Of a DNA stretch of 52,740 bases, positions 2,290-47,314 are shown piece by piece. Position 1 is the first letter of the stretch, and each line of letters begins with the position of its first letter. The DNA comes from a virus. A model generated the notes under the pieces. That model was not told the origin of the DNA. It was given only the letters and a program-made list of their open reading frames with translations, and searched no databases. Both the position numbers and the translations under genes were made by a program. Where the stretch lies: positions 1 through 52,740 of the IMG/VR virus record IMGVR_UViG_3300050015_001011. One strand, written 5' to 3'.

Positions 2290-3135
2290 TTATTTCTTTT
2301 CCCAATTAGGAATTAGATCTTCGTAAGTATCTTTCATTCTATTATATTCTTCTTTACCTATCACTATTAAAGTTTCTTCAGGATACTGTTCTTTGAAAAG
2401 CTGAATTTTTTCCTTTGATTTTTCATTCATATAACCTTTATCCTCATACCAAATATTAGTTCCTAAAATATGAAAATCAGGGCAATATGTTAATTTAGAG
2501 CCGTTTTTTCTATTAAGAATAAATCTTTTAGATTCATATTCAAATGGAATACCTTCATAATTAAATACTCTGGCATGATTAGCTTCCCATCTAGAACGAA
2601 AGTTTTGATTATCAAGATCTTTTCTTTTTCCTATTTTACCCCTTCCAGATTTTGGATGGGCACGTTTTCCGAACATATTACCTTTATCTCCTAATTGCGT
2701 TTTAGACATTAATTCTAAAGTTTCTGCGGAAGGATGCGTTCCAACTCTATTATGCCCTCTAATATATTTTTGCTTAGAATTTTTAAGACAGATAAATGGT
2801 TTTTCACAAGTACATTTGCAATATCTAGTTTCATATTCATGGCACTCTGGTTTATACGCAGGGGCTTTTTCTCCTATTCTGCCATACATAGGATTTCCTT
2901 TTCCAGTTACTGTTTTAGAGTGTTTTATTCGCGATTTTTTAGAACGAAATTTTCCTAACATAGGGGCATTTTTTCCTTTATTTTGATGTCCATTAATGAA
3001 TTTTTGTTTAGACCAAGTATAGCATATAAAAGTTATTTTGCATCCACAAACACAGCATCTAGTTTCTGTGATATGAAGCTCTGGTTTATAATTAGGGCCA
3101 TGTTTTTTCGTTCTTATGTATATACCTTTTGGCAT
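2290..3135 (-). CDS. modular homing endonuclease, PD-(D/E)XK type
   Basis: A free-standing selfish endonuclease of 281 residues. The N-terminus MPKGIYIRT is the leader shared by this window's family. It is followed by two Cys-rich finger-like modules (CVCGC..SKQKFINGH and CKCTC..SKQKYIRGH) and NUMOD3-like helical repeats (AETLELMSKTQLGDKG), which are DNA-binding modules. The C-terminal domain carries W-E, YCPDF and YEDKGYM, the spacing of a PD-(D/E)XK nuclease core (E, PD, ExK). It lies antisense between the exonuclease and the dpdA-like gene, eight bases past the former. Its own strong ribosome site AAAGGAGG shows it is translated. The nuclease fold is inferred from motifs. Confidence 0.85.
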   Translation of the reverse strand: MPKGIYIRTKKHGPNYKPELHITETRCCVCGCKITFICYTWSKQKFINGHQNKGKNAPMLGKFRSKKSRIKHSKTVTGKGNPMYGRIGEKAPAYKPECHEYETRYCKCTCEKPFICLKNSKQKYIRGHNRVGTHPSAETLELMSKTQLGDKGNMFGKRAHPKSGRGKIGKRKDLDNQNFRSRWEANHARVFNYEGIPFEYESKRFILNRKNGSKLTYCPDFHILGTNIWYEDKGYMNEKSKEKIQLFKEQYPEETLIVIGKEEYNRMKDTYEDLIPNWEKK

Positions 3136-3165
3136 ATCTTACCTCCTTTGAATTGTTGATTCTAT

Positions 3166-3222
3166 CTATATAATATAATTAAAAGAATTAAGGAAATTAT
3201 TGATAACTGCAGTGTATAATAA
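3166..3222. promoter_or_regulatory. conserved intergenic element, copy 1
   Basis: This AT-rich stretch between the antisense endonuclease and the dpdA-like gene aligns with 11902-11950 and 25239-25292. The shared parts are a TAATT-containing arm, a purine-rich centre ending GGAAATTATTGATA, and a downstream TGTATAATAA (3213-3222). The arms form a loose inverted repeat (ATAATT/AATTAT), as in an operator. No -35 box lies at normal spacing from TATAAT. Confidence 0.55.
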
Positions 3223-3238
3223 ACTAAAGGAGAATAAA

Positions 3239-4018
3239 ATGTTGATATCTCATACAGTACCTACCAAATATTTAAGAAAATTTGATGAATTTTCTTCAGT
3301 TTATCTAGTATTAGGACACCTAATTGGAAAAGACGAGGAATATACAAACTTTTTTACTCAATCTAAAAAATATAAATATATAGATAATTCGGCGTATGAA
3401 TTAGGAGAAGCGATAAAAAATCAGGAGCTGGTGGACAAAGCACATTTAATAAATGCTGATGCACTAGTACTTCCAGATGTTTTTATGGATGGATTAGAAA
3501 CGCTTAAAAGAACTTATGCATTCTTAGAAAAATTTAGAACAATTCACAAAGATTTTGATTTAGTAGCTGTGCCACAAGGAAAGACGCCAGAAGAATATTT
3601 AGATTGCGCAAGTGAATTATTAAAAATTAAAGAGATCAAAACTATTGCAGTATCATTTTTAGTTGTAGCAAGATGTTTTAGTATTATCACGCGAACAAAT
3701 GATCAGAATGTGTTAGCAAATAGACCTTTAGCAGTAGGTATGGTAAGGCAGTTAATGAGATTACAGGCAAATCAGCTTAATATACATCTTCTAGGTTTAG
3801 GTAATCCGATTGAATTATCTTGTTACAATAATAAAGGTTTTGTAGTTAGTTGTGATTCTTCTGTGGCATTTGCATTAGCTAATGTAGGATTGAAAGTAAA
3901 TAATTTAGGTTGTCCTAGAGATAAGTTTGATCACTTAAATTTTGATGAAACAGATACTTCTGCAGAAACATTGCTTTTAGCCGAACGAAATATCAGAAGA
4001 ATTAACAGCTTTATTTGA
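3239..4018 (+). CDS. dpdA: DpdA-like DNA 7-deazaguanine transglycosylase
   Basis: Likely exchanges guanine in DNA for a 7-deazaguanine base (such as preQ0), as phage DpdA proteins of the tRNA-guanine transglycosylase superfamily do. Features are a TIM-barrel-like pattern with YIDNSAYELG, ADALVLPDVFMDGLET, AVPQGKTPEEY, IHLLGLGNPIEL and a final VVSCDSSVAFALANVG strand that would carry an active-site aspartate. The start is the ATG after AAAGGAG, giving 259 residues, within the size range of phage DpdA. GTP cyclohydrolase (4719) and QueC (9044), both steps of preQ0 synthesis, lie nearby and support the call. Family assignment is by motif recall. The exact base made is unknown. Confidence 0.75.
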   Translation: MLISHTVPTKYLRKFDEFSSVYLVLGHLIGKDEEYTNFFTQSKKYKYIDNSAYELGEAIKNQELVDKAHLINADALVLPDVFMDGLETLKRTYAFLEKFRTIHKDFDLVAVPQGKTPEEYLDCASELLKIKEIKTIAVSFLVVARCFSIITRTNDQNVLANRPLAVGMVRQLMRLQANQLNIHLLGLGNPIELSCYNNKGFVVSCDSSVAFALANVGLKVNNLGCPRDKFDHLNFDETDTSAETLLLAERNIRRINSFI

Positions 4019-4032
4019 GCAAAACGTTTCTT

Positions 4033-4144: not shown

Positions 4145-4717
4145 ATGAGAAAGGGTAAGATAAGTGAGTTCAGTCCGAAAATAGCTGGAAGCGACGCAAG
4201 TCATGCCGAATATTTGACAGAAGGAATTAAGAAGTCTCGTAAGATGGAAACGTTTGTAAAGATGTATGCTGAGAAGGACGTGAGAAAAATAAAGACGCTT
4301 CCAAGTATGAAAAAAAGAAAGGAGATTATGTTAGCAGCTTTAGATATGGCTAAGAAACCTGAGGAGAAGGTAAAGTATAATAAAGAGATTGCGAATAAGA
4401 TTGTATCACAAGTTTTAAAGAGATTGGAAGTAGGCTCACAGAAGTACGGCGCCGAGTATTTCCTTGCCGACTGTATTGGCGATGAACTTTATCAGGAGCT
4501 ACTTGACCAAGTAGGATGGGCACTTATTAACGCTGTGAGATGGGTAGAGGTATTTCAGAAAAGATTCTTACCGACGGACGCTATCTACTGGAAAAAGTTC
4601 ATGGCTAACCAGAAAATAGATTTTCTTTTAAAGCTGCAGGATGAAGTAAAAGAAGAACTCAGTAAGAGAAAAATTACTGCTAAAGTAGTTGGACTTAAAG
4701 AAAAAGGAGAAAAATAA
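4145..4717 (+). CDS. hypothetical protein
   Basis: A 190-residue basic N-terminal region plus a helical C-terminal half (VGSQKYGAEYFLADCIGDEL, then VGWALINAVRW). The second half vaguely recalls small phage proteins related to nucleotide pyrophosphohydrolases, but the key acidic motif is not clear. The start is taken at the ATG with GGAGG five bases upstream; an earlier in-frame ATG at 4124 lacks one. It overlaps no gene but almost touches folE. Confidence 0.7.
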   Translation: MRKGKISEFSPKIAGSDASHAEYLTEGIKKSRKMETFVKMYAEKDVRKIKTLPSMKKRKEIMLAALDMAKKPEEKVKYNKEIANKIVSQVLKRLEVGSQKYGAEYFLADCIGDELYQELLDQVGWALINAVRWVEVFQKRFLPTDAIYWKKFMANQKIDFLLKLQDEVKEELSKRKITAKVVGLKEKGEK

Positions 4718-4718
4718 T

Positions 4719-5309
4719 ATGCCTAGTATTGCTGAATCATTTGTAGAAATCTTGAGAAGTTTAAACATTGATCTTGCAGATGCTAATTTTACTGATACAC
4801 CAAATAGGGTCCAGAGAGTGTATGAGCATCTTTGTTTGCGCTGCGTAGTAGGACCAGAGAAGGATTTAGAGAGTATTAAAAAACTTACTGTTACGTTCCC
4901 AAGTACAGCAAAGAATTTGGTAGTTGTTAAAAATATAAAGGCATATAGTGTATGTCCGCATCACTTCTTGCCTGTGGAGTATAGAGTGGACTTTGGCTAC
5001 ATACCTGATGCGTCAGTTGTAGGGTTATCAAAGATCCCAAGACTTATAAAGTACTTGGCTAAGAAACCGGCTTTGCAAGAAGATTTTGTGGAAGAGATTG
5101 TAGATGTATTTGAGCAGATGTTAAAACCTCTTGGTTGTATGTCCATAGTCAGAGGTTTTCACGGGTGTATGAAGTTTCGTGGGATTGAGGAGCCTAACTC
5201 GCCGGTCATCACTTCTGCTATTAAGGGAGTGTTTAAAAATCCACCCGAAGGTAAGAATCCAAGACAAGAAATGTTGGATTTATTAAATGTAGAAGAAAAT
5301 TCAGGTTAA
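4719..5309 (+). CDS. folE: GTP cyclohydrolase I
   Basis: Converts GTP to 7,8-dihydroneopterin triphosphate, the first step of both folate and 7-deazaguanine (preQ0) synthesis. The signature is intact: SVCPHHFLPVEYRVDFGYIP with zinc ligands C79 and the adjacent histidines, GLSKIPR, and HGCMKFRG with C150. It has 196 residues, slightly shorter than bacterial FolE because the N-terminal helix is reduced. The start is the ATG after AAAGGAG. With QueC and the DpdA-like protein nearby, its likely job here is feeding 7-deazaguanine DNA modification rather than folate. Confidence 0.93.
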   Translation: MPSIAESFVEILRSLNIDLADANFTDTPNRVQRVYEHLCLRCVVGPEKDLESIKKLTVTFPSTAKNLVVVKNIKAYSVCPHHFLPVEYRVDFGYIPDASVVGLSKIPRLIKYLAKKPALQEDFVEEIVDVFEQMLKPLGCMSIVRGFHGCMKFRGIEEPNSPVITSAIKGVFKNPPEGKNPRQEMLDLLNVEENSG

Positions 5310-5316: not shown

Positions 5317-5976
5317 ATGAAGAATACATATAATTTTTGTGCTTGTGGCTGTAAACAAAGAGTTACTAAATTTAAGAATAAATATATTAATGGGCACAAC
5401 CAAAGAGGAAAATATCTTTCTTTGAATACTAGAAGCAAAATGAAACGAGCTCAGGCAGATCGAATTCTTCCAGCTGAAACAATAAAGAAATTTTCTACTG
5501 ATAAATTAGGTAAAAATAATCCTAATTGGAAAAAACATCCTTCTGAAGAAACCTTAAAATTAATGTCAGAGGCGCAGAAAGGTGAAAAAAATCACAATTT
5601 TGGAAAACCTGGTCCAGCAAAGGGAGGCAGAGGAAAGGGCGGCAAAAGAGAAGATTTAGGTAATCAATATTTTAGATCTAGTTGGGAACCTAATATTGCG
5701 CGGGTTTTTAATTGGGAAGGAATTCCCTTTGAATATGAACATAAGAGATTTATTTTAGTCAGGTCTGATAAATTAAAGGCGACATATTGCCTTGATTTTC
5801 ATATTACAGGAACTAATATCTGGTATGAAGTAAAAGGTTATATGGATAAATTATCGGCCGAAAAAATTCAACTTTTTAAAGAACAGTATCCCGATGAAAT
5901 TTTAATTGTGATTGGTTTAGAGAAATATAGAGCCTTAAAAGAAACTTATAAATATTTAATTTCTAATTGGGAATAA
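5317..5976 (+). CDS. modular homing endonuclease, PD-(D/E)XK type
   Basis: A 219-residue member of the window's selfish endonuclease family. It lacks the usual MPSGIYVRT leader and starts directly in a Cys finger (CACGCKQ..NKYINGH). NUMOD3-like repeats follow (SEETLKLMSEAQKGEKN), then the nuclease domain with the invariant W-E (SSWEPNIARVF), YCLDFH and WYEVKGYM. In the first acidic motif PD is replaced by LD, a possible sign of decay or tolerance. It sits eight bases after folE with only a weak ribosome site, so it may depend on read-through translation. Confidence 0.85.
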   Translation: MKNTYNFCACGCKQRVTKFKNKYINGHNQRGKYLSLNTRSKMKRAQADRILPAETIKKFSTDKLGKNNPNWKKHPSEETLKLMSEAQKGEKNHNFGKPGPAKGGRGKGGKREDLGNQYFRSSWEPNIARVFNWEGIPFEYEHKRFILVRSDKLKATYCLDFHITGTNIWYEVKGYMDKLSAEKIQLFKEQYPDEILIVIGLEKYRALKETYKYLISNWE

Positions 5977-8786: not shown

Positions 8787-9047
8787 ATGGACAAATTAGA
8801 ATTGACTCTAGAACCTAAAAAGAAATCTGAAGTAGAAGAACAGGAAGTGCTCATCTCTTTAGATGTTTATATTCCTTTAAAGAATATAAAAGAAACTTTT
8901 GAGAAAGCTGGTGGGCAGGTAGCAACAGATTTAAATGAAGTGAGTTTATTGTCTATGGTTGATGTCTCAGTAAGATTTACTGTAGAGTCAGCTTTAAAAG
9001 CTATATTTGGTGAAGCAGAAGTTATTTTACAACAGGAGGAAAAATGA
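8787..9047 (+). CDS. hypothetical protein
   Basis: An 86-residue acidic protein. It starts one base after the previous stop and overlaps queC by ATGA. It is not a QueD (no HxH zinc motif) despite its position before queC. Function unknown. Confidence 0.62.
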   Translation: MDKLELTLEPKKKSEVEEQEVLISLDVYIPLKNIKETFEKAGGQVATDLNEVSLLSMVDVSVRFTVESALKAIFGEAEVILQQEEK

Positions 9048-9715
9048 TTGGTGAAAAGGCAGTAGTGATTTTTAGTGGTGGTATGGATAGTATCACTTTA
9101 TTGAATTATGTTAAATCGCTAGGTTATGGTGTTTATGGCCTTAGTTTTAATTATGGACAAAAACACGTTAAAGAATTGGTCTTCGCTAAACTTTGGGGCC
9201 AGTTAGAGTGTGAAGAGCATAAAATTATTAATTTGGATTTTATGAAAGACATTGCTAATGATTCTGCATTGACTGGAAATAAAGAAATGCCGAAGGAGCA
9301 TTATACACATGAAAATCAGAAGGTTACTGTTGTACCAAATAGGAATATGGTTATGTTGAGTATAGCGGTTGCTTGGGCAGAAAATTTAAAAACAGATAAA
9401 GTATTTTATGGTCCTCATGCAAATGATTTAACTATTTATCCTGATTGTCGCCCAGTATTTGTTGAGGCCGTTTCAAAGGCTTCCGAGCTAGCTACTTTTA
9501 GTGAGGTTAAAATCTTTGCTCCTTTTGTAAATATTACTAAATCTCAGATAGTTGCGTTAGGAACTAAGTTAGGAGTAGATTATTCAAAAACTTGGAGTTG
9601 TTATGAAGGTAGAGATAGGGCCTGTGGAAAATGTGGCACTTGCCAAGAAAGAATTGAAGCGTTTAAAGAGAATGAATTGATTGATCCGTCTCCGTATGAG
9701 GTGGTTAGTTATTGA
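9044..9715 (+). CDS. queC: 7-cyano-7-deazaguanine (preQ0) synthase
   Basis: Makes preQ0 from 7-carboxy-7-deazaguanine and ammonia using ATP. The PP-loop SGGMDS is at residues 11-16, NYGQKH and VPNRNMVML follow, and the zinc site C186, C194, C197, C200 (ACGKCGTC) is complete. At 223 residues it is the standard QueC size. AGGAGG precedes the ATG, which overlaps the previous stop. With folE and the dpdA-like gene it makes a case for 7-deazaguanine in the phage DNA. QueD and QueE are not in the window and must come from elsewhere in the genome or the host. Confidence 0.94.
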   Translation: MIGEKAVVIFSGGMDSITLLNYVKSLGYGVYGLSFNYGQKHVKELVFAKLWGQLECEEHKIINLDFMKDIANDSALTGNKEMPKEHYTHENQKVTVVPNRNMVMLSIAVAWAENLKTDKVFYGPHANDLTIYPDCRPVFVEAVSKASELATFSEVKIFAPFVNITKSQIVALGTKLGVDYSKTWSCYEGRDRACGKCGTCQERIEAFKENELIDPSPYEVVSY

Positions 9716-10299: not shown

Positions 10300-11252
10300 T
10301 TGATTTTATCTCACGAGAGTTTTTAGGCAGTACCTTAGGTCTCAAACATATTAAGGAAACGCCAGAAGGGTATTCTGCGTCGTGTCCTTTTAAGCGTTTT
10401 CATAGTAATGGAGAAGACAAGCACCCATCTTTCAATATAAAAAAAGATACAGGTGTGTGGCATTGTTTTACTTGTGATCAATCAGGGAATTTAAATAAAC
10501 TTTTTATTGAAGTTCTAGGAGAGGTTCCAGAGGAGTATAAAGATTTTTATAAGAGAACGGATCCTAATTCTGAAAAATTAAAGGTTCGATTAAATAAGGC
10601 AGCATCTGTTCACGTTAATATAATTTCTTTGCCGAAAGAGTACACCTTAGAATTGTCCGAAGAAGCGCAGATTTATGTAAGAGAGACAAGAGGAGTAACA
10701 AAGTCGGCAATAAATTATTTTCAAATAGGTTATTGTAAAGGAGGTCAATATCTTGATTGTATAGTAATACCTATATTTTTTGAAAAGATACTCAGGAGTT
10801 TTATTGCTCGTAAGATAGGTGAAGAGTTACTGCCTCATCAGAGAAGATATATGCTGGCATCAGGTACTCCTAAAAAAGAACTTCTATTTAATTATGATAG
10901 AATAGATGGAGATAAAGTTTATATAGTGGAAGGGGTGTTTGATGTGCTGAGACTATTTTCATTAGGTACTTTGAATGTCTGCGGGTTACTTGGTTCTACA
11001 ATTAGTGAAATTCAGATACAGAAATTACTCCAAAAGGGGGTGAAAAAGGTTTGTGTAATGCTTGATGGTGATGTTGCAGGGAGAAGCGCATCTAAGGTTG
11101 TTTGTGAGAAGCTATGCGCGTATTTTGAGACATCTAGAATATTATTAGCGCAAGGTAAAGATCCAGGCTCAATCAAAGATATGCAGGAGCTAGATTTTTT
11201 GCTCCGTTTAGAAAAAGAATATATTCTTCCAGTTTCTGCATCTTCGCACTAA
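10296..11252 (+). CDS. DNA primase (DnaG-type)
   Basis: Makes RNA primers for phage replication. An N-terminal CHC2-type zinc module (CPFKRFH..HPSFNI..WHCFTCDQSGN) is followed by a Toprim domain with YIVEGVFDVL, GLLGS and VMLDGDVAGR, the acidic metal site. It has 318 residues with no helicase domain. The last 80 bases are overlapped, in antisense, by the HNH endonuclease gene. That may reflect insertion of the endonuclease at the primase end and replacement of its original C-terminus. Confidence 0.9.
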   Translation: MIDFISREFLGSTLGLKHIKETPEGYSASCPFKRFHSNGEDKHPSFNIKKDTGVWHCFTCDQSGNLNKLFIEVLGEVPEEYKDFYKRTDPNSEKLKVRLNKAASVHVNIISLPKEYTLELSEEAQIYVRETRGVTKSAINYFQIGYCKGGQYLDCIVIPIFFEKILRSFIARKIGEELLPHQRRYMLASGTPKKELLFNYDRIDGDKVYIVEGVFDVLRLFSLGTLNVCGLLGSTISEIQIQKLLQKGVKKVCVMLDGDVAGRSASKVVCEKLCAYFETSRILLAQGKDPGSIKDMQELDFLLRLEKEYILPVSASSH

Positions 11253-11895
11253 AAAATTCTGTCCAATATTTTCTTTTTGTATTAACTTTGCAGTTACAGC
11301 TAGTGCAGAGAGTTATCAAATTAATTGGAGAGCAGTTCTTTTTATTGTAATCTATGTGGTGAACACACAATTTTTTATTTCTGTTATTATTAGTAGTTTT
11401 AAAGCATTTTTGGCACGTATGATTATCTCTTTCTCTAATAGTTTCTCTGAAAGGCTCTGTCCATTCTGTTGCGTATGGTAAAGAGCCTATTCCTCCTAAC
11501 CAGTTAGGGTTGTTTTCTTTAGAGTGATCGGCTCCTTTTCTACAGTGCCCATTAACATATTTCTTTTTAGAAATAGTAGCACACACAAAAGGTTCGTGCC
11601 CGGGACACGCACAGTATCTAGTTTCCATAATATGATTTTCAGGTTTATATCTTATTTTAAGTAATATTGCTTTGTGTTTTGGAGTGAGCTGTTTTCCAAT
11701 ACGACTATGCCCATTAATAAATTGTTTCTTAGAAACGGTGAAACATTCAAAAGTTTCTTTGCAACCACAAGCGCATATTCTAGTTTCAGGTATATGAAGT
11801 TCTTGCTTATATTTTGCTTTAGCCAGATTGGCCCTTCCTTTTGGTGTTCTTGTATATATTCCGCTAGGCATGATTTTGTCTCCTTTTGTGTTCAT
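11173..11895 (-). CDS. modular homing endonuclease, HNH type
   Basis: A 240-residue selfish endonuclease. After a short start extension comes the shared MPSGIYTRT leader, then two Cys fingers (CACGCKETF..KKQFINGH and CACPGHEPF..KKKYVNGH). The catalytic end is an HNH domain: CQKCF, VHHIDYNK, NLITLCTSCN. The N-terminal modules match the PD-(D/E)XK members elsewhere in the window, so catalytic domains have been swapped. A second ATG at the MPSGIY position, eight codons in, has its own AAAGGAG and may be the true start. Tail-to-tail overlap with the primase is 80 bases. Confidence 0.88.
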   Translation of the reverse strand: MNTKGDKIMPSGIYTRTPKGRANLAKAKYKQELHIPETRICACGCKETFECFTVSKKQFINGHSRIGKQLTPKHKAILLKIRYKPENHIMETRYCACPGHEPFVCATISKKKYVNGHCRKGADHSKENNPNWLGGIGSLPYATEWTEPFRETIRERDNHTCQKCFKTTNNNRNKKLCVHHIDYNKKNCSPINLITLCTSCNCKVNTKRKYWTEFFSAKMQKLEEYILFLNGAKNLAPAYL

Positions 11896-13889: not shown

Positions 13890-15275
13890 ATGGCGAAGAC
13901 AAATAAGAAAGTGAAAGAGGAAAAGATTTATACACATGAAGGGTCTCCTGCTACCCGCACAACTGCTGAAAATCAATTGAGGCGTTCTTTGATGTCCTGT
14001 ATGTTGTGGGAAAATGAATTCTACGAAGATGGCCAAAAAATTTCTGAACGTATCGCTGATCTTGTTGGAAAGGTAGACAGAAATAAGGTTGCTTTAATGG
14101 CGATCGAAGCGCGGGAGAAGATGCATTTACGTCATGCTCCTTTGTGGGTTGTAAGGGCGCTTGCTAAAGTTTCTGATGGTACTTCTCTTGTATCTGATAC
14201 TCTTGCAACGGTTATACAGAGGCCAGACGAGTTAACAGAGTTTCTGGCTTTGTATTGGAAAGACGGTAAAGCACCTCTTTCTGCGCAAGTGAAGAAAGGA
14301 TTGGCAAAAGCATTTACTAAGTTCTCTGAGTATTCTTTGGCTAAGTACAATCGAGCTGAGGCCATTAAACTGAGAGACGTTTTATTTCTTTGCCACGCGA
14401 AACCAAAGGATCGGGATCAAGCTGATTTGTGGAAGAGATTGGTTGACGGAACAATGACAACTCCTGATACCTGGGAAGTGGAACTTTCTGCTGGCAAGAG
14501 CAAGAAAGATGTGTTTGAAAGACTGTTGAAGGAGAAGAAACTTGGTGGTCTTGCTTTCTTACGGAACTTGAGAAATATGGAAGAAGCTGGTGTAGACAAG
14601 AAGTTAGTAAACGCTTCAATAGAAACGGTTGATTTCTCAAGAGTATTACCTTTTAGATTTATTGCTGCTTCCATGGCTGCTCCTAAGTTTGAGGGAGTAA
14701 CAGAGAAGGCTATGTTAGCTTCTATGGAAGGTAAAGATAAGATGAAAGGCAAAACAGTTTTGATTGTAGATGTGTCTGGAAGTATGTATGGTTCTAGTAT
14801 ATCAGGCAGATCTATAATGAATAGAGCTCAGGTAGCAAGTGCCTTAGGAATATTAGTAAGGGAGTTGTCTGAGGATTCATCAATTTATGCTACTGCCGGA
14901 AATGATAGTTCGTGCGTTCATCAGACGGCTGTTGTACCCGCACGAAGAGGATTTGCTCTGTCGGATTATATTTACAGTCAGTGTAATCCTTTAGGTGGTG
15001 GAGGTATCTTTCTTAAACAAGTAATGGACTATGTTTTAAAGTATGAGAAAGAAGCTGACCGAGTTATTGTGATAACGGATGAGCAGGACTGTGGTGGAGG
15101 CGGAGAAGATGCTCCCGCAAAAGCAAATACCTTTGGAAAAGAAAATTATTTGATTAACGTAGCCTCTAATAAGAATGGAATTAGTTATACAGGAAAGTGG
15201 ACACGTGTTGATGGTTGGTCAGATGCGGTAGTAGATTTTATTTTGAAAAACGAGTCCCAAGTTCGTGAGCAGTAA
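13890..15275 (+). CDS. rsr: Ro60/Rsr ortholog (TROVE and vWA domains)
   Basis: The phage version of the Ro autoantigen. It forms a ring that binds Y RNAs and the ends of misfolded or structured RNAs. Bacterial Rsr works with 3'-5' exonucleases such as PNPase in RNA decay. Residues about 20-275 follow the TROVE HEAT-repeat pattern (LRHAPLWVVRALAKV, ELTEFLALYW, LAKYNRAEAIKLRDVLFLCH). A von Willebrand A domain follows with a complete MIDAS: DVSGS at 294-298 and ITDEQD near 397. At 461 residues it is shorter than the Deinococcus protein. AAGGAGG precedes the ATG. Y-RNA-like genes start nine bases after its stop, which strongly supports the assignment. Ro homologues are known in a few phages such as mycobacteriophage Bxz1. 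Confidence 0.92.
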   Translation: MAKTNKKVKEEKIYTHEGSPATRTTAENQLRRSLMSCMLWENEFYEDGQKISERIADLVGKVDRNKVALMAIEAREKMHLRHAPLWVVRALAKVSDGTSLVSDTLATVIQRPDELTEFLALYWKDGKAPLSAQVKKGLAKAFTKFSEYSLAKYNRAEAIKLRDVLFLCHAKPKDRDQADLWKRLVDGTMTTPDTWEVELSAGKSKKDVFERLLKEKKLGGLAFLRNLRNMEEAGVDKKLVNASIETVDFSRVLPFRFIAASMAAPKFEGVTEKAMLASMEGKDKMKGKTVLIVDVSGSMYGSSISGRSIMNRAQVASALGILVRELSEDSSIYATAGNDSSCVHQTAVVPARRGFALSDYIYSQCNPLGGGGIFLKQVMDYVLKYEKEADRVIVITDEQDCGGGGEDAPAKANTFGKENYLINVASNKNGISYTGKWTRVDGWSDAVVDFILKNESQVREQ

Positions 15276-24051: not shown

Positions 24052-24517
24052 AAAATTAATACCTTTATATTTTTATGAGGTTGGTTATAATTCCGAAGAA
24101 GGTAGTTCCAGTACTTCATTAGTTAGTGATCAAGAAGTATCGCAAGATGATTTTGAGAAGCTTTGTATTGAAGCGTGCAACGCAGCTTTAAAAAATTTAT
24201 TAGGTGCAAATAAAAACCATTTAGGTTATTATGATAAGCTTGATGAAAAGGCTTATATAAGTTTTGAGTATCTTGTTGATGGGATGGTAGAAGAGCTTGC
24301 GAAGAAAGGGTTTAATCGAGTGACGTTTAAGGCAAATTTCTTTCCGTTTGGTTGGGGTAATCTTTTTGATAGGGAAGATTGGAAAGACCATAGAGATGAT
24401 TTGGATTATCGTTTAATAGACGGTTTAGATAAAGAAGTAATTGAAAAGATAACCCAAAAGATGAAAGCGAAATTTATAAAAGAAGAGGACAAAGATAATG
24501 AATATACTAATACTTAA
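24038..24517 (+). CDS. hypothetical protein
   Basis: 159 residues, acidic with aromatic clusters (ISFEYLVDGMVEELAKKGFN, FFPFGWGNLFDREDW). It sits inside the glycosylation cluster. Its last ten bases overlap the antisense HNH endonuclease end, so the original C-terminus may have been altered by that insertion. No family recognised. Confidence 0.7.
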   Translation: MGDSKKLIPLYFYEVGYNSEEGSSSTSLVSDQEVSQDDFEKLCIEACNAALKNLLGANKNHLGYYDKLDEKAYISFEYLVDGMVEELAKKGFNRVTFKANFFPFGWGNLFDREDWKDHRDDLDYRLIDGLDKEVIEKITQKMKAKFIKEEDKDNEYTNT

Positions 24518-25226
24518 AGATCTGTTCAATTTTATTACTAAAATATTCCGTCCAGTATTCCCTATTAAAATTTACTTTAGAGTTACAGCTTCTACAAAGA
24601 GTTGTTAAGTTTTTAGGGGTACAGTTCAACTTATTATAATCAATGTGATGAACAATAAAAGTTTTATCTTTTTGTGTTGCAGAACATTTTTGACAAGTAT
24701 AATTATCTCTTATTCTGATAGTTTCTTTAAAAGGAGGAGTCCATTCTATAGAATATGGTAAAAGAGATATTCCTCCTTGCCAATGAGGACTTTTTTCTCC
24801 TACGTATCTTCCTGTCATTGCTTTAGCTAGAGTTGTTTTGGTTTCTTTAGTGTGATGCTTATTTTTAAATCCAGAAACTAATAATCCTAATTTATAGAGA
24901 GCAAGCTTAATCTTAGAACAGGATTTAGCATTCTTTTTAACTCTTTCATCTGTTTCTTGTTTGAGGCTCTTGTTCCAAGGAATATTTCCTTTTTTCCAGG
25001 TACTTTTATTAGGAGGGTGGCTTTTCCCTTTCATGTGGTGTCCCTTAATATATTTTTGGTTGGACCTAACTTCACATTCAAAGGATTCATGATCGGGACA
25101 ACTACATATTCTAGTTTCAAGAATATGAATTTCGGGATTATAATTTGGATGTTGTCCAGAAGCAAATTTTCCTGTGAGAGTTTTAGATATTTTAGCTCTT
25201 ATTTTTAGTGATCTTTTTTTAAACAT
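24507..25226 (-). CDS. modular homing endonuclease, HNH type
   Basis: 239 residues. It lacks the MPSGIY leader and begins with a NUMOD3-like segment (RAKISKTLTGKF). It has one Cys finger (CSCPDHESF..NQKYIKGH), a WNKSLKQETDERV linker also seen in the endonuclease at 46484, and a C-terminal HNH domain (CQKCS, VHHIDYNKLN, NLTTLCRSCN). The HNH part closely matches that at 11173. It lies antisense between two cluster genes, next to conserved element copy 3. Confidence 0.87.
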   Translation of the reverse strand: MFKKRSLKIRAKISKTLTGKFASGQHPNYNPEIHILETRICSCPDHESFECEVRSNQKYIKGHHMKGKSHPPNKSTWKKGNIPWNKSLKQETDERVKKNAKSCSKIKLALYKLGLLVSGFKNKHHTKETKTTLAKAMTGRYVGEKSPHWQGGISLLPYSIEWTPPFKETIRIRDNYTCQKCSATQKDKTFIVHHIDYNKLNCTPKNLTTLCRSCNSKVNFNREYWTEYFSNKIEQIFKY

Positions 25227-29095: not shown

Positions 29096-32000
29096 ATGAC
29101 TAAAGAGTTGAAAGTAGTAAAGGAAAGCAGTAAAAGTGCTGGTTCTACAGAGATAGATCTTTTAGTTGAAAGTTTATCGGCCGAGGAAGTTGGACCTTGG
29201 AGTAAAGATAGAGTTGCTGAATCTTTAATGTTAGAAGCAGGTTTAGAAAAAGAGAAGGCAGATGATATAGCGACTGTTGTAGAAGACAGAATATCGCAGT
29301 TGAAGATATCGAGAATTTCTACTTCTTTAGTAAGGGAGCTAGTAAACAATGAACTTTTGGAAAGAGGTGAAAATAAGCGTCTTAAACGATATCAGTGTCT
29401 TGAGATACCTATTTCGGATATTGAATCATTTACCTTTGCTAAGAGTAATGCTAATTCTAATATTAATAACAACAATCCAGAGTCAGTAGCTTTTTTTATG
29501 AGTGAGAATATCACCAAGAAGTATGCTTTACGTAGAGTATTTTCTCAAGATGTTACTCAGGCTCATTTAGATGGCAGGATTTATATACACGATCTTGGAA
29601 TGGTAGAAAGGCTTTATTGCTTTGGTGGAAATATTCCTGAGTATTTAAAGAAGTATGGTTTGCAGGATCTTGATAGTTTGAGCACTAAATCCTTTCCTGC
29701 CAGCACTGCTAATACGCTAGTAGGACATATTAATACATTTCTTTCCATCATACAGGCTTATTTTGCGGGCGCTTTAGGTTTAGGATTTTTAAATATATTT
29801 TTTGCTCCGTATTTAATGAATATGAGTCGCGAACAAGTTTATAATTTAGCGCAGCATTTTGTATTCAGTCTCTCACAGAATTGTTTTAGTAGAGGAGCAC
29901 AGGTTTTATTTATTGATTTAAATTTGCATTTTGGTATTCCGAAGGTGTTAAAAGATGTTCCGGCTATTGGCCCAAAAGGTAAATACATGATAAAGATGCA
30001 TATCAAAGATACTTGTAATAATTCTTGGATCTTTTATAATGATAAACCCGAAATTGATTTAGAGAAAATAGATATCGAGATAAAGAGATTGAATGAGGAG
30101 GCTGAAAGTACTGTGATGGGAGATGTTTGTTACGGTTTTCCTGAATCGGTTAAGGATGATAATATAGAATTTAGGGTTATGACTTATGGTGATTTCGAAC
30201 AGGAAGCTCAAATGTTTCTTGATGTTATTTTGCAGCTGTATAAAGAAGGAGACAAGCAAGGTAATTTCTTTTACTTTCCAAAGATAGATTTGCATATCAC
30301 TAAAGAATGTTTTGAAGATGAGACACAGAAGGCTCTTTTGATGAAGGCCTGTGAAACTGCTTCTGTTAATGGAACTCCTTATTTTATATATGATAGAGAT
30401 TCAACGGTGCTCAGCCAATGCTGTTTAGAGGCTAAGGAGCCTTTACTTCTTAGAAAGGAAGGCAAAGTATTTTTAGGCAAGGCTGAAGATATGTCGACAC
30501 AATCGGAGATAATTGCTGTTGATCCCGTTTCTCATAAATCTGAGTGGGTATTTCCTAAACACGTTATAACGAGAGAAGAGAGTGCTATAGTTGAGATTAC
30601 TGCTCGAGATGGTAAACAAATGCGTGTTACTAAAGACCATCCAATATTAATATTAGAAGATGGAGAAGTAAAGGAGCGGAAGGCCGAGGCATTAAAAGAA
30701 GGTGATTTTGTTTTGCGCAAAGTTAAATGGGAAGATTCTCTCTTTTCTATTAATTATAAAGAACATAAAGGCGTTCTTATAGATGAGGAATATGCTTTTA
30801 TGCTTGGGTTGTTTCAAGCAGAGGGATGTAAATCTAAAGCAGGTGAACTGTGTTTTGCTCTTCATAAAGATGAACTCGATTTAGTGAATAGGGTGTGTGA
30901 CTTTTTTGGCTTGAGTTTTATTCGAAAACAATATGTTGATAAATATCATATTTGGGATATTCGCGTTCGGAGTATTTGTTCGCGGATTCAATTTAAAGAA
31001 ATTTGTGAGAAATATGAAAAGATTCCTCAAGTTATTTGGAATTCTCCGCTTTCAGTTATGAAGGCATACATAGAGGGATTTTATGCTGGTGATGGGTGGA
31101 AATACTCTAATTATACTTTGAAAAAAGGAAAAGGAATAGGTATTAATGATGCTAATCTTAGCGTAGAACTTTCTATTTTGCACGATATGATAGGTATTCC
31201 TACTACGTATAGAGAGCATAGTTACACAAGTAAAAAAGGTAAGCATGTTGGAAGGGAATTTTTTCACCAAGTAATTTTGTATCAAACTTCAGTGTCTAAG
31301 CATTCTATTTTGTATGATAGAATACCTCATCAGCTTATAAAGTTTAAGCGTGGTGCATCTCACTTACTTCGTATTGATAAAAAAGAAAAATTAATTGGTA
31401 TTGATAAATTAAATTCTCTTTGCGACCAAGGGTATGTAGAACGCGCTCAAGTAGATCGATGTATGAATGATCCTATTCGATATATTCCTATTGAAAAAGT
31501 AGAAGTTTTAAGCGGTGAGTTTAAGGTTTATGATATAGAACTTCCTAAGTTTAATTGGTTTGTGCACTCTCAAAGTTTTATTAGTCACAATTGCCGCCTG
31601 AAGGTAGAAATAAATGATGAGGAGCTGATTAAGCATCCAGAGTCAATTAGATTTTGTGCTTTGCAGAACGTAACCATAAATCTTCCTCAAGCAGCTTACC
31701 GTGCAGGCAAAGGTAATTTTACTGATTTTATTGATGAGGTTTATAAGTCAATGGATTTTGCTATGAAGGCGCACGAACAAAAGGCGCGGCTAATGAAGAA
31801 GTGTATGAAACCAGGTGCTCCTTTATATACGGTTGGAAAGGCTTGGTCGGACAAACTTCCTTGGGTTGATTTAGATAAGAGTACGCGGATTATTGGTATT
31901 CTTGGTTTGAATGAGGCAATGCAGTTTCTTTTTGATAAGGGATTGGATGATGAGAAGTCTTACAAGAAGGGTTTAGAAACAATAGTAAGAATGTATCATA

Positions 32001-32638
32001 AATGTGAAAAGTATGAAAAAGAGTTTGAATGCCCTGTTCGACTTGAGGAGACTCCAGCTGAATCGCTCGCATATAGAGCCGCTAAGGTAGATTTACAGCG
32101 ATTTCCCGAGCAGGCTAAGTCCGTTGTAAGGGGTTCAGTAGAAGGCGGAGGCGTTTACTATTCGAATTCGGTGCATTTACCTGTTGATTCACCTGTTGGC
32201 ATAGTAGAGAGAGTTAAGAAGCAAAGTGCCTTTCATCCTTTAGTAAGAAGTGGGAGTATGGTACATGCTTGGGTTAATGATTCTCTACCAGAGCCAGGAA
32301 GTCTATTTAGTTTTCTTCAGAAAGTGTATAATAATACGGCATGTGATCAAATTTGTGTTTCTCCAAATTTTACTTTTTGTAAAGATTGCGATCAGAGATC
32401 TGTAGGATTACTTGATGAGTGCCCGTATTGTAAGAGTAAAAACTTAGAACATGTTTCTCGAGTTACAGGATATTTTTCGAAGGTAGAGAATTATAACGCG
32501 GGAAAGAAGCAGGAAGTAAAAGATAGACTTAAAGGAGATTGTAAAGTAGAAGAAAAACAGTTTTATGAAGTAATTAGAGAAATAGATGAGGTATTAAAAT
32601 CTGATACTGTGTGCAAATTAAAAGTAGAGGAGAAATAG
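29096..32638 (+). CDS. nrdD: class III (anaerobic) ribonucleotide reductase with intein
   Basis: Reduces NTPs to dNTPs using a glycyl radical, so it works only without oxygen. Residues about 1-95 look like an ATP-cone. The catalytic part has YIHDLG, SVNGTPYFIYDRDS and SQC-CRLK. Near the C-terminus are a four-cysteine zinc site (CKDC, CPYC) and RVTGYF, the glycyl-radical loop. An intein of 390 residues interrupts SQC|CRLK; without it the enzyme is about 790 residues. The activase NrdG is not in this window. A GGAG stands before the ATG. Confidence 0.94.
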   Translation: MTKELKVVKESSKSAGSTEIDLLVESLSAEEVGPWSKDRVAESLMLEAGLEKEKADDIATVVEDRISQLKISRISTSLVRELVNNELLERGENKRLKRYQCLEIPISDIESFTFAKSNANSNINNNNPESVAFFMSENITKKYALRRVFSQDVTQAHLDGRIYIHDLGMVERLYCFGGNIPEYLKKYGLQDLDSLSTKSFPASTANTLVGHINTFLSIIQAYFAGALGLGFLNIFFAPYLMNMSREQVYNLAQHFVFSLSQNCFSRGAQVLFIDLNLHFGIPKVLKDVPAIGPKGKYMIKMHIKDTCNNSWIFYNDKPEIDLEKIDIEIKRLNEEAESTVMGDVCYGFPESVKDDNIEFRVMTYGDFEQEAQMFLDVILQLYKEGDKQGNFFYFPKIDLHITKECFEDETQKALLMKACETASVNGTPYFIYDRDSTVLSQCCLEAKEPLLLRKEGKVFLGKAEDMSTQSEIIAVDPVSHKSEWVFPKHVITREESAIVEITARDGKQMRVTKDHPILILEDGEVKERKAEALKEGDFVLRKVKWEDSLFSINYKEHKGVLIDEEYAFMLGLFQAEGCKSKAGELCFALHKDELDLVNRVCDFFGLSFIRKQYVDKYHIWDIRVRSICSRIQFKEICEKYEKIPQVIWNSPLSVMKAYIEGFYAGDGWKYSNYTLKKGKGIGINDANLSVELSILHDMIGIPTTYREHSYTSKKGKHVGREFFHQVILYQTSVSKHSILYDRIPHQLIKFKRGASHLLRIDKKEKLIGIDKLNSLCDQGYVERAQVDRCMNDPIRYIPIEKVEVLSGEFKVYDIELPKFNWFVHSQSFISHNCRLKVEINDEELIKHPESIRFCALQNVTINLPQAAYRAGKGNFTDFIDEVYKSMDFAMKAHEQKARLMKKCMKPGAPLYTVGKAWSDKLPWVDLDKSTRIIGILGLNEAMQFLFDKGLDDEKSYKKGLETIVRMYHKCEKYEKEFECPVRLEETPAESLAYRAAKVDLQRFPEQAKSVVRGSVEGGGVYYSNSVHLPVDSPVGIVERVKKQSAFHPLVRSGSMVHAWVNDSLPEPGSLFSFLQKVYNNTACDQICVSPNFTFCKDCDQRSVGLLDECPYCKSKNLEHVSRVTGYFSKVENYNAGKKQEVKDRLKGDCKVEEKQFYEVIREIDEVLKSDTVCKLKVEEK
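30422..31591 (+). mobile_element. LAGLIDADG intein in nrdD
   Basis: Residues 443-832 of the precursor. It begins with Cys1 (CLEAKEPLLL), has block B with TKDHP, and ends with SFISHN before the +1 Cys of the C-extein, so all splicing residues are present. The two LAGLIDADG helices are FMLGLFQAEG and AYIEGFYAGDG with acidic active-site residues, so the endonuclease is probably active. The insertion point is a conserved catalytic-site sequence of NrdD, as is usual for inteins. Confidence 0.93.
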
Positions 32639-42564: not shown

Positions 42565-43284
42565 ATGTCGTATATAAGAACACCGGAAATTTTAGAAAAA
42601 CAATCTAAAGCACTGATGGGGCATCTTGTCAGTAGAGAAGTACGTGATAAGATAGCAAAAGCTTTAATTGGAACAACCCGTACTGAAGAATCTAAATTAA
42701 AACAATCCAAGACAATGTCTGGCGAGAATCATCCTAATTATAATCCTAAAAATTATATTATGGAGACTAGGTATTGTGCTTGTGGCTGTTTAGCGCCTTT
42801 TGAGTGTTCTATAACTTCTGAAAAAAGTTGTCTCACAGGGCATAGTAGGCTTACTAAAGAGAAGCATGAAAATATGTCTAGAGCTACTTCCGGTAAAAAT
42901 AACGGTCATTATGGGAAGCCAGCTGCAAAAGAAGCAGGTCGCGGAAAAGTAGGAACGCGCTTAGATCTTAATCAGTTCTTTCGTTCTACTTGGGAAGCAA
43001 ATCAAGCTAGAGTTTTTAATTGGGAAGGTATTCCTTGGAAGTTTGAATCTAAAAGATTTTATTTTACTGGCGACAACGTTAAAAGTTCGTATTGTCCGGA
43101 CTTTCATATCCCAGGAACTAATATTTGGTATGAAGTAAAAGGTTATATGGATGATGTTGCGAAGAAAACCATTAAAATATTTCGTAAGCAGTATCCTAAT
43201 GAGATTTTGATAGTAATAGGTAAAGAAGAATACGGTAGAATGAGAGACACATATAAAGACTTGATTCCTAATTGGGAATCTTAA
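42565..43284 (+). CDS. modular homing endonuclease, PD-(D/E)XK type
   Basis: 239 residues: two NUMOD3-like repeats, one Cys finger (CACGCLAPF..LTGH with the usual Lys replaced), another NUMOD3-like repeat, then STWEANQARVFNWEGIPW, YCPDFHIPGTN and WYEVKGYM of the nuclease core. All catalytic positions are intact. It is inserted between the spoVG-like gene and a small gene and is preceded by a regulatory pseudoknot. Confidence 0.87.
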   Translation: MSYIRTPEILEKQSKALMGHLVSREVRDKIAKALIGTTRTEESKLKQSKTMSGENHPNYNPKNYIMETRYCACGCLAPFECSITSEKSCLTGHSRLTKEKHENMSRATSGKNNGHYGKPAAKEAGRGKVGTRLDLNQFFRSTWEANQARVFNWEGIPWKFESKRFYFTGDNVKSSYCPDFHIPGTNIWYEVKGYMDDVAKKTIKIFRKQYPNEILIVIGKEEYGRMRDTYKDLIPNWES

Positions 43285-43983: not shown

Positions 43984-45348
43984 ATGATTAAGTTATCAAC
44001 ACAACCTAAATACAAGATAGGAGACCTCATCACTTTAAAACAAGGTGCTGAGGTAATTATTTCTGGTACGCAGGACGAGGTTCCGAGAAAGTGGGTAGAT
44101 GATGGTAAGCTTTGGGGTGTAGATCATTATGAGGAAGAATCAGGAAGGCTTAATATCAATCGCGTACTTACTCCTTATCCTGGTGCTTTTTGTTCTTGGG
44201 TATCCGAAGATGAAGTACTAGGAATAAGTTTAAGTAGACAAGCTCAAGATGATGAAGATGAGTTTGATGTAGTAGCACGCAAGTTTCTAAAGTGGACAAA
44301 GAGTTTAAATCTTTCAACTCCGAGCGCATTTATTTCTAAGAATAAATTAGAAAGATTATTTAAAGGGCTTGCTAAAACAGGGTTTATAGATAGACCGTTA
44401 CTTGAGGAACTTAGAATGGACGTAATTGTTAATTTAAAAAGTTTTGTAAGTAAAGTTAAAGAATTTTGGAAAAGATATAACGTAATGGATGAAGATGAGA
44501 AGGGGCATCTTTCTAGCATCTGGAGTGAAGGATCGTATGATAATGATGATATTGAGGCCGGAATGGACAACCTAGATGAGTTATTCTCTTTTGAAGATAG
44601 TGGCGGTGGCTTATCTTATTACGAAGCTCTATTGCAACCGGGACTTTCAGATGCAGATTTATTTCAAAGATTTAATACATTCATAAATTTTGCTCATCAG
44701 AGAATAGATTATGGCGCAGATTGGGTAGAAGGAGGTAGAGAAACTTTGGATGAATTAGCTGGCTATAAAAAAGTATTTAAAAAGAAAGCAGCAGACTTTA
44801 CTTGCATTATGCTAGAGATAGATAAGCAAGAAAGTATTTATGCTAAGATAAAGGCTATTGCAAAGAAGATAAAGAAGGAAGATCTGTCAGAAGATGGTAG
44901 AGAAGATGATTTACATGTTACGCTGAAGTATGGACTTGATACCGAAGATCCTGCCCTCATAAGGCCTTTACTTGATAGTGAAGGAAAAATTACTTTAGAA
45001 ATAAAGAAGCTCGATTATTTTGGGGCTAAGGAAACAAAGCAGGATTTTGATGTAGTTATTCTTAGAGTAGATTCTGATCAAATACAAGAACTTCATGAAA
45101 CTATAACTGATACCTTTAAGGATTCGGGCGAAACTCATCCTAAGTACTTGCCCCATATTACTCTTGCTTATGTAAAAAGGGGTTTGGGAAAAGATATCGT
45201 AATAGAATTAAGAAAGGATGCTGAAGATTTAATAGGTAAAAAAATTGTATTTAAAGAAGCTTTATTCAGTACACCAGAAGAAAAAAAGACTGTGATAAAA
45301 TTAAGTAGGCAGATAGTAAAACAAGTTAGATTAAGCAGACAAGGATAA
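43984..45348 (+). CDS. multidomain protein with C-terminal 2H phosphoesterase
   Basis: 454 residues. Residues 1-80 start MIKLSTQPKYKIGD and form a small beta domain. After GISLSRQAQ (81-88) comes a helical domain. From about 278 there is a 2H phosphoesterase with both HxT motifs, HVTL (311-314) and HITL (391-394). The end is KLSRQIVKQVRLSRQG. 2H enzymes act on 2',3'- or 2',5'-phosphoesters; phage members include RNA-repair enzymes and the anti-CBASS protein Acb1. Repeated LSRQ at domain borders suggests cleavage or linker sites. Confidence 0.75.
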   Translation: MIKLSTQPKYKIGDLITLKQGAEVIISGTQDEVPRKWVDDGKLWGVDHYEEESGRLNINRVLTPYPGAFCSWVSEDEVLGISLSRQAQDDEDEFDVVARKFLKWTKSLNLSTPSAFISKNKLERLFKGLAKTGFIDRPLLEELRMDVIVNLKSFVSKVKEFWKRYNVMDEDEKGHLSSIWSEGSYDNDDIEAGMDNLDELFSFEDSGGGLSYYEALLQPGLSDADLFQRFNTFINFAHQRIDYGADWVEGGRETLDELAGYKKVFKKKAADFTCIMLEIDKQESIYAKIKAIAKKIKKEDLSEDGREDDLHVTLKYGLDTEDPALIRPLLDSEGKITLEIKKLDYFGAKETKQDFDVVILRVDSDQIQELHETITDTFKDSGETHPKYLPHITLAYVKRGLGKDIVIELRKDAEDLIGKKIVFKEALFSTPEEKKTVIKLSRQIVKQVRLSRQG

Positions 45349-45350
45349 AT

Positions 45351-46058
45351 ATGCCAAGTGGAATATATGTAAGAACAATAGAGATGAATGAAAGGCAGTC
45401 TAAAATAATGACAGGAAAACTTACTGGTGATCCTCGATTAAGTAGAAAAGGTAAGCTAAATTCTCAGTATGGTAAAACCGGAGAAAATGCTCCTAATTAT
45501 AATCCGAAGAACTATATTTTAGAAACTAGAATATGTGTATGCGGCTGTAGTTTACCTTTTGAATGTTCTTTGTCTTCTAAAAAGAGATTTATTAAAGGCC
45601 ATGGTCGCATAGGTAAGATTTTTTCTGAAGAGGCTTTAAAGCTAATGTCTGAAGCAAGGAAAGGTGAAAAGCATCCTAATTTTGGAAAATCCGCTTATCC
45701 CGGCTCTGGTTATGGTAAATCTGGTAAAAGAAAAGATCTCAATAATCAAAGCTTTAGATCTACCTGGGATGCTAATGTAACTCGCATCTTTAATTATGAG
45801 GGTATACCATCAGAATATGAATGTAAAAGATTTCCTCTTATTAGGGCAGATGGTTCAAAAACGTCATATCTTCCTGATCATCATATTGTAGGAACACATA
45901 TATGGTACGAGCAGAAAGGTTATATGAGATCCGGTTGCCTGGAAAAAATAACTTTGTTTAGAGAACAGTATCCAAATGAAATTTTAATTGTAATAGGTCC
46001 TGAAGAATATAAAAGATTTAAAGAGTCTTACAAAGATTTAATTCCTAACTGGGAGTAG
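45351..46058 (+). CDS. modular homing endonuclease, PD-(D/E)XK type
   Basis: 235 residues with the MPSGIYVRT leader, a Cys finger (CVCGCSLPF..KKRFIKGH), a NUMOD3-like repeat (EEALKLMSEARKGEKHPNFG) and the nuclease domain, where YLPDHHI and WYEQKGYM keep D, E and K. It lies three bases after the 2H protein and two before the DUF192 gene, both of which carry LSRQG at the junction. This suggests it split a once continuous frame or a duplicated segment. Confidence 0.87.
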   Translation: MPSGIYVRTIEMNERQSKIMTGKLTGDPRLSRKGKLNSQYGKTGENAPNYNPKNYILETRICVCGCSLPFECSLSSKKRFIKGHGRIGKIFSEEALKLMSEARKGEKHPNFGKSAYPGSGYGKSGKRKDLNNQSFRSTWDANVTRIFNYEGIPSEYECKRFPLIRADGSKTSYLPDHHIVGTHIWYEQKGYMRSGCLEKITLFREQYPNEILIVIGPEEYKRFKESYKDLIPNWE

Positions 46059-46059
46059 C

Positions 46060-46440
46060 ATGAAACTATCAAGACAAGGCCAACAATCTTTTAATACCAT
46101 TTTTTGTAGCACGGGAGAAGAGAAAGCTCTTGGTTTACAAGGAGTAGTAGACATACCGAATAATACAATTCTTGCGTTCGAGGGAGTTTCCCAAGGCGAT
46201 TTCTTTCATATGAGAAATTGTGCTTTCCCGATTGACTGGTTGTGTGTATCTAATGATGGAACTATTTTAAAAAAAGAAGCGCTGCATCCAGAAGATGATG
46301 TTGCTGGAGTTGCGCCAGGCACGAAGTATGTGATTGAAGCCAAATTGGGAACGTTTAGCGGTAATAAGGGAGATCAAATAGATCTGACTAGTTTAAAGCC
46401 TTCCGGAGGATCTGTGTTTGACTTGTCCAGGAACAAATAA
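46060..46440 (+). CDS. DUF192-family protein
   Basis: 126 residues. After MKLSRQGQQ comes the DUF192 pattern: GLQGVVDIPNNTILAF, FFHMRNCAFPIDWLCVSNDG and YVIEAKLGTF. The family is a small beta-barrel of unknown function. The C-terminus FDLSRNK again resembles the LSR motif. The start ATG is one base past the endonuclease stop and lacks its own ribosome site. Confidence 0.8.
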   Translation: MKLSRQGQQSFNTIFCSTGEEKALGLQGVVDIPNNTILAFEGVSQGDFFHMRNCAFPIDWLCVSNDGTILKKEALHPEDDVAGVAPGTKYVIEAKLGTFSGNKGDQIDLTSLKPSGGSVFDLSRNK

Positions 46441-46483
46441 AAATGCAGGAAATTCTAATTATTTTATAGTAAAGGAGATTGTA

Positions 46484-47314
46484 ATGCCAACAGGAGTATA
46501 TGTAAGGACATTTGAGAATAGTAAAAGGCCTCATCTTAAAGAAAATCTTTCTGAAGAGACGGTAAGATTAATGTCGGAAGCACAGTCTGGCGAAAAGGGC
46601 CATAACTATAAATCTGAATGCCATGATTATGAAACTAGAATTTGTGATCCTATTTGTGGTTGTGGCGAAACTTTTGAATGTCTTAGACGTTCTAATCAAA
46701 AGTATATTCTTGGACATAATGGTAGAACCAAAGAAGCTAAGAGACATTTATCTGAAACGAATTCAGGAGAAAAGAACGGTCAGTTTGGGGTTGAGCCATG
46801 GAATAAAGATACAAAAGGTATTGTGGTTGCTTGGAATAAGAATTTGACTAAAGAAACCGATTTAAGAGTAAAAAAGAATTCCTTTCAAATAAGTTCTACT
46901 TTGAAAGAGGGTTATAAGTCGGGTAGAATTGTTAGTGCTCGTTTGGGCAAACCTTGTCCTAAAGGGGCTGGTCATAGTAAAGGTGGTATTAGAGAGGATA
47001 TAGGAATATATGTGCGATCTACTTGGGAAGCTAATTTTGTTAGAATACTTGATCTTTTAGGTATATCTTGGTTATATGAATCTAAGAGATTTGCACTAAT
47101 CAGAGCTGATGGATCTAAAATGACATACTGTCCAGACTTTTATGTTTATGGTGTATATTGGGAAGTTAAAGGATATATGAGACCGGAAGCAGCTGAAAAG
47201 ATAAAATTATTTAAAGAGCAATATCCAGAACAGGGATTAGGAGTAGTTGATCACGAAGAATATAAGAAGTTAGAAAGGGAATATAGAGATTTAATTCCGA
47301 ATTGGGAAAGTTAA
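46484..47314 (+). CDS. modular homing endonuclease, PD-(D/E)XK type
   Basis: 276 residues, the most elaborate copy. MPTGVYVRT leader, NUMOD3-like repeats, a Cys finger (CGCGETF..NQKYILGH), a WNKNLTKETDLRV segment shared with the HNH protein at 24507, then STWEANFVRIL, YCPDFYVYG and YWEVKGYM. AAAGGAG precedes the ATG. The shared linker with an HNH member shows module exchange. Confidence 0.88.
   Translation: MPTGVYVRTFENSKRPHLKENLSEETVRLMSEAQSGEKGHNYKSECHDYETRICDPICGCGETFECLRRSNQKYILGHNGRTKEAKRHLSETNSGEKNGQFGVEPWNKDTKGIVVAWNKNLTKETDLRVKKNSFQISSTLKEGYKSGRIVSARLGKPCPKGAGHSKGGIREDIGIYVRSTWEANFVRILDLLGISWLYESKRFALIRADGSKMTYCPDFYVYGVYWEVKGYMRPEAAEKIKLFKEQYPEQGLGVVDHEEYKKLEREYRDLIPNWES

Follow-up and report, generated by a model that had tools for sequence, protein, structure and literature searches.

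How does one phage come to carry seven endonuclease genes that resemble each other in their N-terminal parts, yet end in two different kinds of cutting domain? The window in which they lie comes from a virus of bacteria and spans an IMG/VR virus entry from end to end (52,740 bases). All seven genes named in a sequence-only reading of this DNA, here HE1 to HE7 (Table 1), are present as intact frames (7/7) and together account for 9.9% of the genome. The start of HE7 was taken at 46484, the mechanical ORF opening at a TTG at 46418, and the 3′ end of HE3 overlaps the 3′ end of the primase gene by 80 bases. The genes are free-standing: each occupies its own frame between other genes, and Rfam detected no intron in the window. 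By tblastn the window holds no extra or decayed copies. From their homology and layout, HE1 to HE7 are selfish-looking genes.

Near relatives of the phage were absent by megablast among 50,697 phage records, and scans of IMG/VR with the terminase-like protein and RecA gave either no relative or one of at most ~40% identity; these searches likewise yielded no related phage with an empty site. The genome encodes RecA, an SbcCD-like system, primase, a 5′-3′ exonuclease, QueC, GTP cyclohydrolase and the anaerobic ribonucleotide reductase NrdD; no tRNA was found in the window, and scans for promoters and terminators in the first 13 kb found no more than expected by chance. Because genes for GTP cyclohydrolase and QueC are present (4689-5309 and 9044-9715, both +), a 7-deazaguanine pathway is suggested. 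The phage also encodes a TROVE/Ro60-like protein (13890-15275, +; PF05731, 63.7 bits) and, between HE5 and HE6, a 2H phosphoesterase related to the anti-CBASS protein Acb1 (43984-45348, +; PF23474, 34.7 bits). At 49494-52740 (+), six adjacent ORFs (starts at 49494, 49725, 50612, 50977, 51292 and 52054) open with a similar leader, M(N/I/Y)(R/K)(I/L)x(K/R/L)A(V/I), and differ in their bodies, as if the leader were a common targeting or processing peptide.

The division into five PD-(D/E)XK-like and two HNH C termini that had been read from the sequence holds: HE1, HE2, HE5, HE6 and HE7 belong to the T7 endonuclease I family, and HE3 and HE4 are HNH enzymes. PF05367 (Phage_endo_I) exceeds its cut-off of 29.1 bits in four of the five; HE2, just under it, has a catalytic domain 71% identical to that of HE1, the range for endonuclease-I-type domains of the window being 54-71% identity to HE1. 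A profile of these domains matches T7 endonuclease I structures (PDB 1m0d, E 6e-8) over an alignment that spans the E, PD and ExK positions; D, E and K are invariant in 5/5 domains, and the first E is a D in HE6. The HE1 catalytic domain is well predicted in an AlphaFold monomer (blocks of pLDDT about 85-97), and Foldseek matches the model to T7 endonuclease I and to further PD-(D/E)XK folds (TnsA, I-Bth0305I and Vsr). VIA-align paired it with I-Bth0305I (Z 7.2, 79 residues, 3.2 Å) and Vsr (Z 6.4, 84 residues, 3.7 Å). As T7 endonuclease I ranks lower in this comparison (Z 4.0), the family call for HE1 rests on sequence and Foldseek. The top VIA-align row, a mitoribosomal protein (Z 8.8, 79 residues), was taken as a common core fold only. 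The HNH domain of HE3 lies under the Pfam cut-offs and was recognised through phrog_8446 and its identity to HE4. CQKC and C(T/R)SC pairs are present in both HNH domains, and the HNH part of the HE3 AlphaFold model matches McrA, DotN and Cap5.

Table 1. Endonuclease genes of the window and their parts (support values as given by the respective trees).
Feature	Position	Strand	Composition or evidence
HE1	2290..3135	-	leader, finger 1, NUMOD3-like, finger 2, T7-endonuclease-I-like domain; PF05367 36.2 bits, NUMOD3 21.2 bits
HE1 leader MPKGIYIRT	3109..3135	-	motif
HE1 finger 1	2974..3099	-	motif; sister of HE3 finger 1, 97/81
HE1 finger 2	2740..2862	-	motif
HE1 catalytic PD-(D/E)XK domain	2293..2637	-	alignment of endonuclease-I domains; PDB 1m0d E 6e-8
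HE2	5317..5976	+	degenerate finger, two NUMOD3, endonuclease-I-like domain; NUMOD3 39.2 bits, PF05367 28.6 bits (just under cut-off)
HE2 degenerate finger CACGC...YINGH	5320..5409	+	motif; E 0.0012 with outside-only profile
HE2 catalytic domain	5632..5973	+	
HE3	11173..11895	-	leader, two fingers, HNH
HE3 leader MPSGIYTRT	11845..11871	-	motif
HE3 finger 1	11695..11817	-	motif; finger tree
HE3 finger 2 (C-x-C-P-G-H form)	11533..11655	-	motif
HE3 HNH domain	11239..11517	-	phrog_8446 6.3e-12; 65% identical to HE4 HNH
HE4	24507..25226	-	finger, WNK linker, HNH; PF01844 25.4 bits
HE4 finger (C-x-C-P-D-H form)	25026..25148	-	motif
HE4 linker WNKSLKQETDERV	24939..24977	-	motif; HE4 42% identical to HE7 over 112 aa
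HE4 HNH domain	24522..24788	-	PF01844 25.4 bits, cut-off 21.4
HE5	42565..43284	+	remnant leader, NUMOD3, finger, endonuclease-I-like domain; PF05367 30.0 bits, NUMOD3 27.8 bits
HE5 finger	42733..42855	+	motif
HE5 catalytic domain	42949..43281	+	
HE6	45351..46058	+	leader, finger, NUMOD3, endonuclease-I-like domain; PF05367 31.5 bits, NUMOD3 33.5 bits
HE6 leader MPSGIYVRT	45351..45377	+	motif
HE6 finger	45492..45614	+	motif; sister of HE5 finger in small tree, 97/96
HE6 catalytic domain	45714..46055	+	
HE7	46484..47314	+	leader, NUMOD3, finger, WNK linker, endonuclease-I-like domain; PF05367 30.2 bits, NUMOD3 28.4 bits
HE7 leader MPTGVYVRT	46484..46510	+	motif
HE7 finger	46607..46729	+	motif
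HE7 linker WNKNLTKETDLRV	46832..46870	+	motif
HE7 catalytic domain	46970..47311	+	

Upstream of the catalytic domains, the parts are distributed unevenly. The leader MPxGxYxRT, which had been described as common to all seven genes, is exact in HE1, HE3, HE6 and HE7, but is reduced to the remnant MSYIRT in HE5 and absent from HE2 and HE4. NUMOD3-like repeats, also ascribed to every member, are over the PF07460 cut-off in HE1, HE2, HE5, HE6 and HE7, whereas HE3 and HE4 gave no match. The linker WNKxLxxETDxRV does occur in one member of each class, namely in HE4 (HNH) and HE7 (endonuclease I type) only. Since only four genes have the exact leader and only two the WNK linker, the sequence-only reading overstated the parts common to all.

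The finger (CxCGC...FxC...GH), by contrast with leader and NUMOD3, is found in 7/7 genes, doubled in HE1 and HE3 and degenerate in HE2; its consensus in the window is ETRxCxCGCxxxFxCxxxSxxxYIxGH. When a profile was made from the fingers of other phages alone, HE1 to HE7 and no other of the 208 window frames matched it (E 6.5e-25 to 1.2e-3), and the motif is therefore neither chance nor circular. CxCGC is replaced by CxCPGH in HE3 finger 2 and by CxCPDH in HE4, a cysteine-to-histidine exchange that would keep the putative metal ligand; the fingers probably bind a metal, presumably zinc. The first finger forms a beta hairpin in the AlphaFold models of HE1 and HE3. No Pfam model matched it. Two zinc fingers were discarded as its identity: the I-TevI one (PF22635) matched nowhere in the window at E 1, and the CapR/DUF723 type has another motif (CxxC...CxC), DUF723 being absent from the Pfam matches at E 1. 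In the PDB only a chance match was obtained (E 1.9), and two pattern scans of GTDB genomes, limited to the degenerate patterns used, returned no confirmed relative.

Phylogenies of the N- and C-terminal parts, whose congruence would speak against the proposed shuffling, proved not to be congruent, because the best N-terminal matches cross class while the catalytic domains group by class. The N-terminal scores of the cross-class pairs HE1-HE3 (269) and HE4-HE7 (166) exceed that of the same-class pair HE3-HE4 (148); HE3 is the best N-terminal partner of HE1, with a higher score than any endonuclease-I-type member reaches against HE1, and HE7 is that of HE4. Conversely, HE3 and HE4 have HNH domains that are each other's closest relatives among 64 (65% identity, SH-aLRT 85), and the five endonuclease-I domains group with modest support (76/54), a subset of HE1, HE2, HE5 and HE6 strongly so (96/97). 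The cross-class similarity follows collinear strings, leader-finger-finger in HE1/HE3 and finger-linker in HE4/HE7. In a tree of 40 fingers, the first fingers of HE1 and HE3 are sisters (97/81), and catalytic-class labels require 22 changes versus 24.6 when shuffled (8/200 as low). On these sequence comparisons one cross-class exchange is well supported, and two are likely.

The finger trees were built on ~40 columns, close to the limit of tree resolution. AU tests on this alignment did not reject a single clade of HNH fingers (p 0.109 and 0.397) or of endonuclease-I fingers (p 0.18), so that they do not fix the number of exchange events. A single exchange followed by gene conversion among the paralogues would fit these tests, the second swap (HE4/HE7) then being a patch and not a whole string; short DNA patches of high identity indeed link some copies (83.7% over 43 nt in HE3/HE4, 83.0% over 47 nt in HE4/HE6). 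However, the HE1/HE3 and HE4/HE7 strings differ in make-up, as would be expected if longer pieces had been exchanged separately, and we regard the conversion model as somewhat unlikely.

That the genes recombined inside one genome, as had been claimed, is in part borne out: the class-crossing similarity and the incongruence of the parts are seen directly, whereas its location is deduced from the clustering of fingers and from pairings absent elsewhere. Labelled by genome, the window fingers need 2 changes in the 40-finger tree versus 7.4 when shuffled (0/500 as low), and the outside proteins closest to either catalytic domain lack the ETRxCxCGC finger. An exchange in an unsampled sister phage would leave the same clustering pattern. 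We consider it likely from these patterns that the exchange took place inside this very genome or lineage.

The suggestion of a common DNA-binding toolkit is supported, and widened by the finger's extension to other phages, where it accompanies at least five catalytic families, DNA binding itself being predicted from sequence. IMG/VR scans located the finger in more than a dozen further contigs. Partners over Pfam cut-off are HNH (L108, L110, L136 and L156), intein-borne HNH (L106 in a portal gene, L134 in a Volactin-type gene, and L159), Vsr (L133 and L135), DUF559 (L102 and L104, with L101:4408 and L137 just below) and a TnsA-like domain (L139). Another finger gene, L101:2866, is HNH by PHROGs (9e-17), and L162 is HNH-like by eye; L105 and L138 have PD-(D/E)XK-like C-terminal stretches with no family over cut-off, and L098 shows the C-terminal layout of DUF559 members with no Pfam match. 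Two short ORFs, in L163 and L165, also matched the finger but showed no nuclease domain and were therefore not counted. Eight finger genes, which represent at least three catalytic families, lie together with an intein on a single 178-kb contig. The T7-endonuclease-I head occurs in none of the outside finger genes found in these scans. As one finger sits on several kinds of cutter in phages, parts appear to be exchanged among cutter genes.

Some of these loci, and one in the window, have unusual architectures. A T4-like portal gene (L140, G007:C1:44500-52500) contains three intein-like insertions in one frame, two with the finger; the Volactin (actin-like) gene of L134 (G003:C1:22000-26000) is split by an HNH intein carrying finger and NUMOD3; and L099:2404-3330 strings together about five fingers and lacks a recognised catalytic domain. 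In the window, the NrdD gene (29096-32638, +) is split by an intein (residues ~488-832) with a LAGLIDADG-like domain just under cut-off.

We tentatively suggest that the finger, CxCGC-x3-FxC-x(6-7)-(Q/K)(K/R)(Y/F)IxGH, may be an undescribed general-purpose DNA-binding bead on at least six nuclease types (T7 endonuclease I, HNH, intein-borne HNH, Vsr, DUF559 and TnsA-like), forming a natural combinatorial finger-nuclease system in which one to five fingers would set the target and heads would be exchanged. With the finger joined to many catalytic classes in other phages, HE1 to HE7 could also have been assembled elsewhere from beads that circulate throughout the homing endonucleases of phages, each one entering this genome ready-made; WNKG linkers and an MPTGIYxRT leader do occur in HNH genes of other phages. 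Such a common pool is distinctly unlikely to be the source, given that the window fingers cluster by genome and carry a YxPExHI prefix missing from the collected outside fingers, that within each class the catalytic domains are nearest to each other inside the genome, and that their nearest outside relatives have no finger.

We therefore favour a model in which HE1 to HE7 are probably free-standing phage homing endonucleases built as beads on a string, with N-terminal strings recombined between two classes. Each gene would consist of an N-terminal leader, one or two putative metal-binding fingers, NUMOD3 or WNK-type linkers and a catalytic head. On the model of the NUMOD-type homing enzymes of phages (PMC3943268), the beads would anchor the enzyme to a long target in a gene-free allele, the head would cut this allele, and repair from the gene-bearing phage would copy the gene into it. 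In this lineage, one endonuclease-I-type gene would have multiplied to five and one HNH-type gene to two, and N-terminal bead strings would have passed between the classes by recombination at least once and probably twice (HE1/HE3 and HE4/HE7). Domesticated nucleases that serve DNA processing or exclude rival phages or satellites, as ICP1 Odn does, would be an altogether different outcome. Although T7 endonuclease I resolves junctions and repurposing of HEG-derived nucleases is known (PMC8263062), it is hard to see what a genome would do with five resolvases, and seven divergent paralogues on both strands, between unrelated genes and with NUMOD-type beads, follow the usual pattern of free-standing HEGs; we judge domestication to be highly improbable.

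Modular, shuffled homing endonucleases of phages are already published. Zinc-finger beads, their repetition and swapping between HEGs were reported for T5orf172 HEGs of ICP1 and other Vibrio phages (PMC10448857), and NUMODs common to several catalytic families have been reviewed (PMC3943268, PMC1564403). Like HE1 to HE7, the T5orf172 HEGs are free-standing phage genes with repeated zinc-finger-type beads (CapR/DUF723) and domain swapping; however, they carry a GIY-YIG-superfamily head, with swaps described within the family, whereas the beads of the window cross between HNH and T7-endonuclease-I types, and the finger motif is another one, for which Pfam has no model. NUMOD homing endonucleases of the I-TevI and I-HmuI types share NUMOD3 and an elongated bead layout across unrelated catalytic families, but the finger is neither a named NUMOD nor I-TevI_ZnF. 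I-Bth0305I (EDxHD) and Vsr have a PD-(D/E)XK-type fold, as does the HE1 model, yet by sequence the window domains go with T7 endonuclease I, and Vsr and DUF559 are finger partners in other phages only. T7 endonuclease I, in turn, resembles the HE1 catalytic domain by sequence and Foldseek but is a stand-alone resolvase, whereas the endonuclease-I members here carry an N-terminal bead string. No description of the finger was found in the open-access literature searched, a scope that mostly excludes subscription papers. New are the CxCGC...GH finger, the variety of catalytic domains to which it is joined, and its occurrence with an endonuclease-I head in a genome whose HNH genes have the same beads.

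As paralogues of one genome, HE1 to HE7 form a small experimental set for studying how homing endonucleases acquire new targets: similar beads are joined to different cutters, and different beads to one kind of cutter. Should the finger prove to read DNA modularly, it would be a small natural module for many nuclease heads, a counterpart to engineered zinc-finger nucleases.
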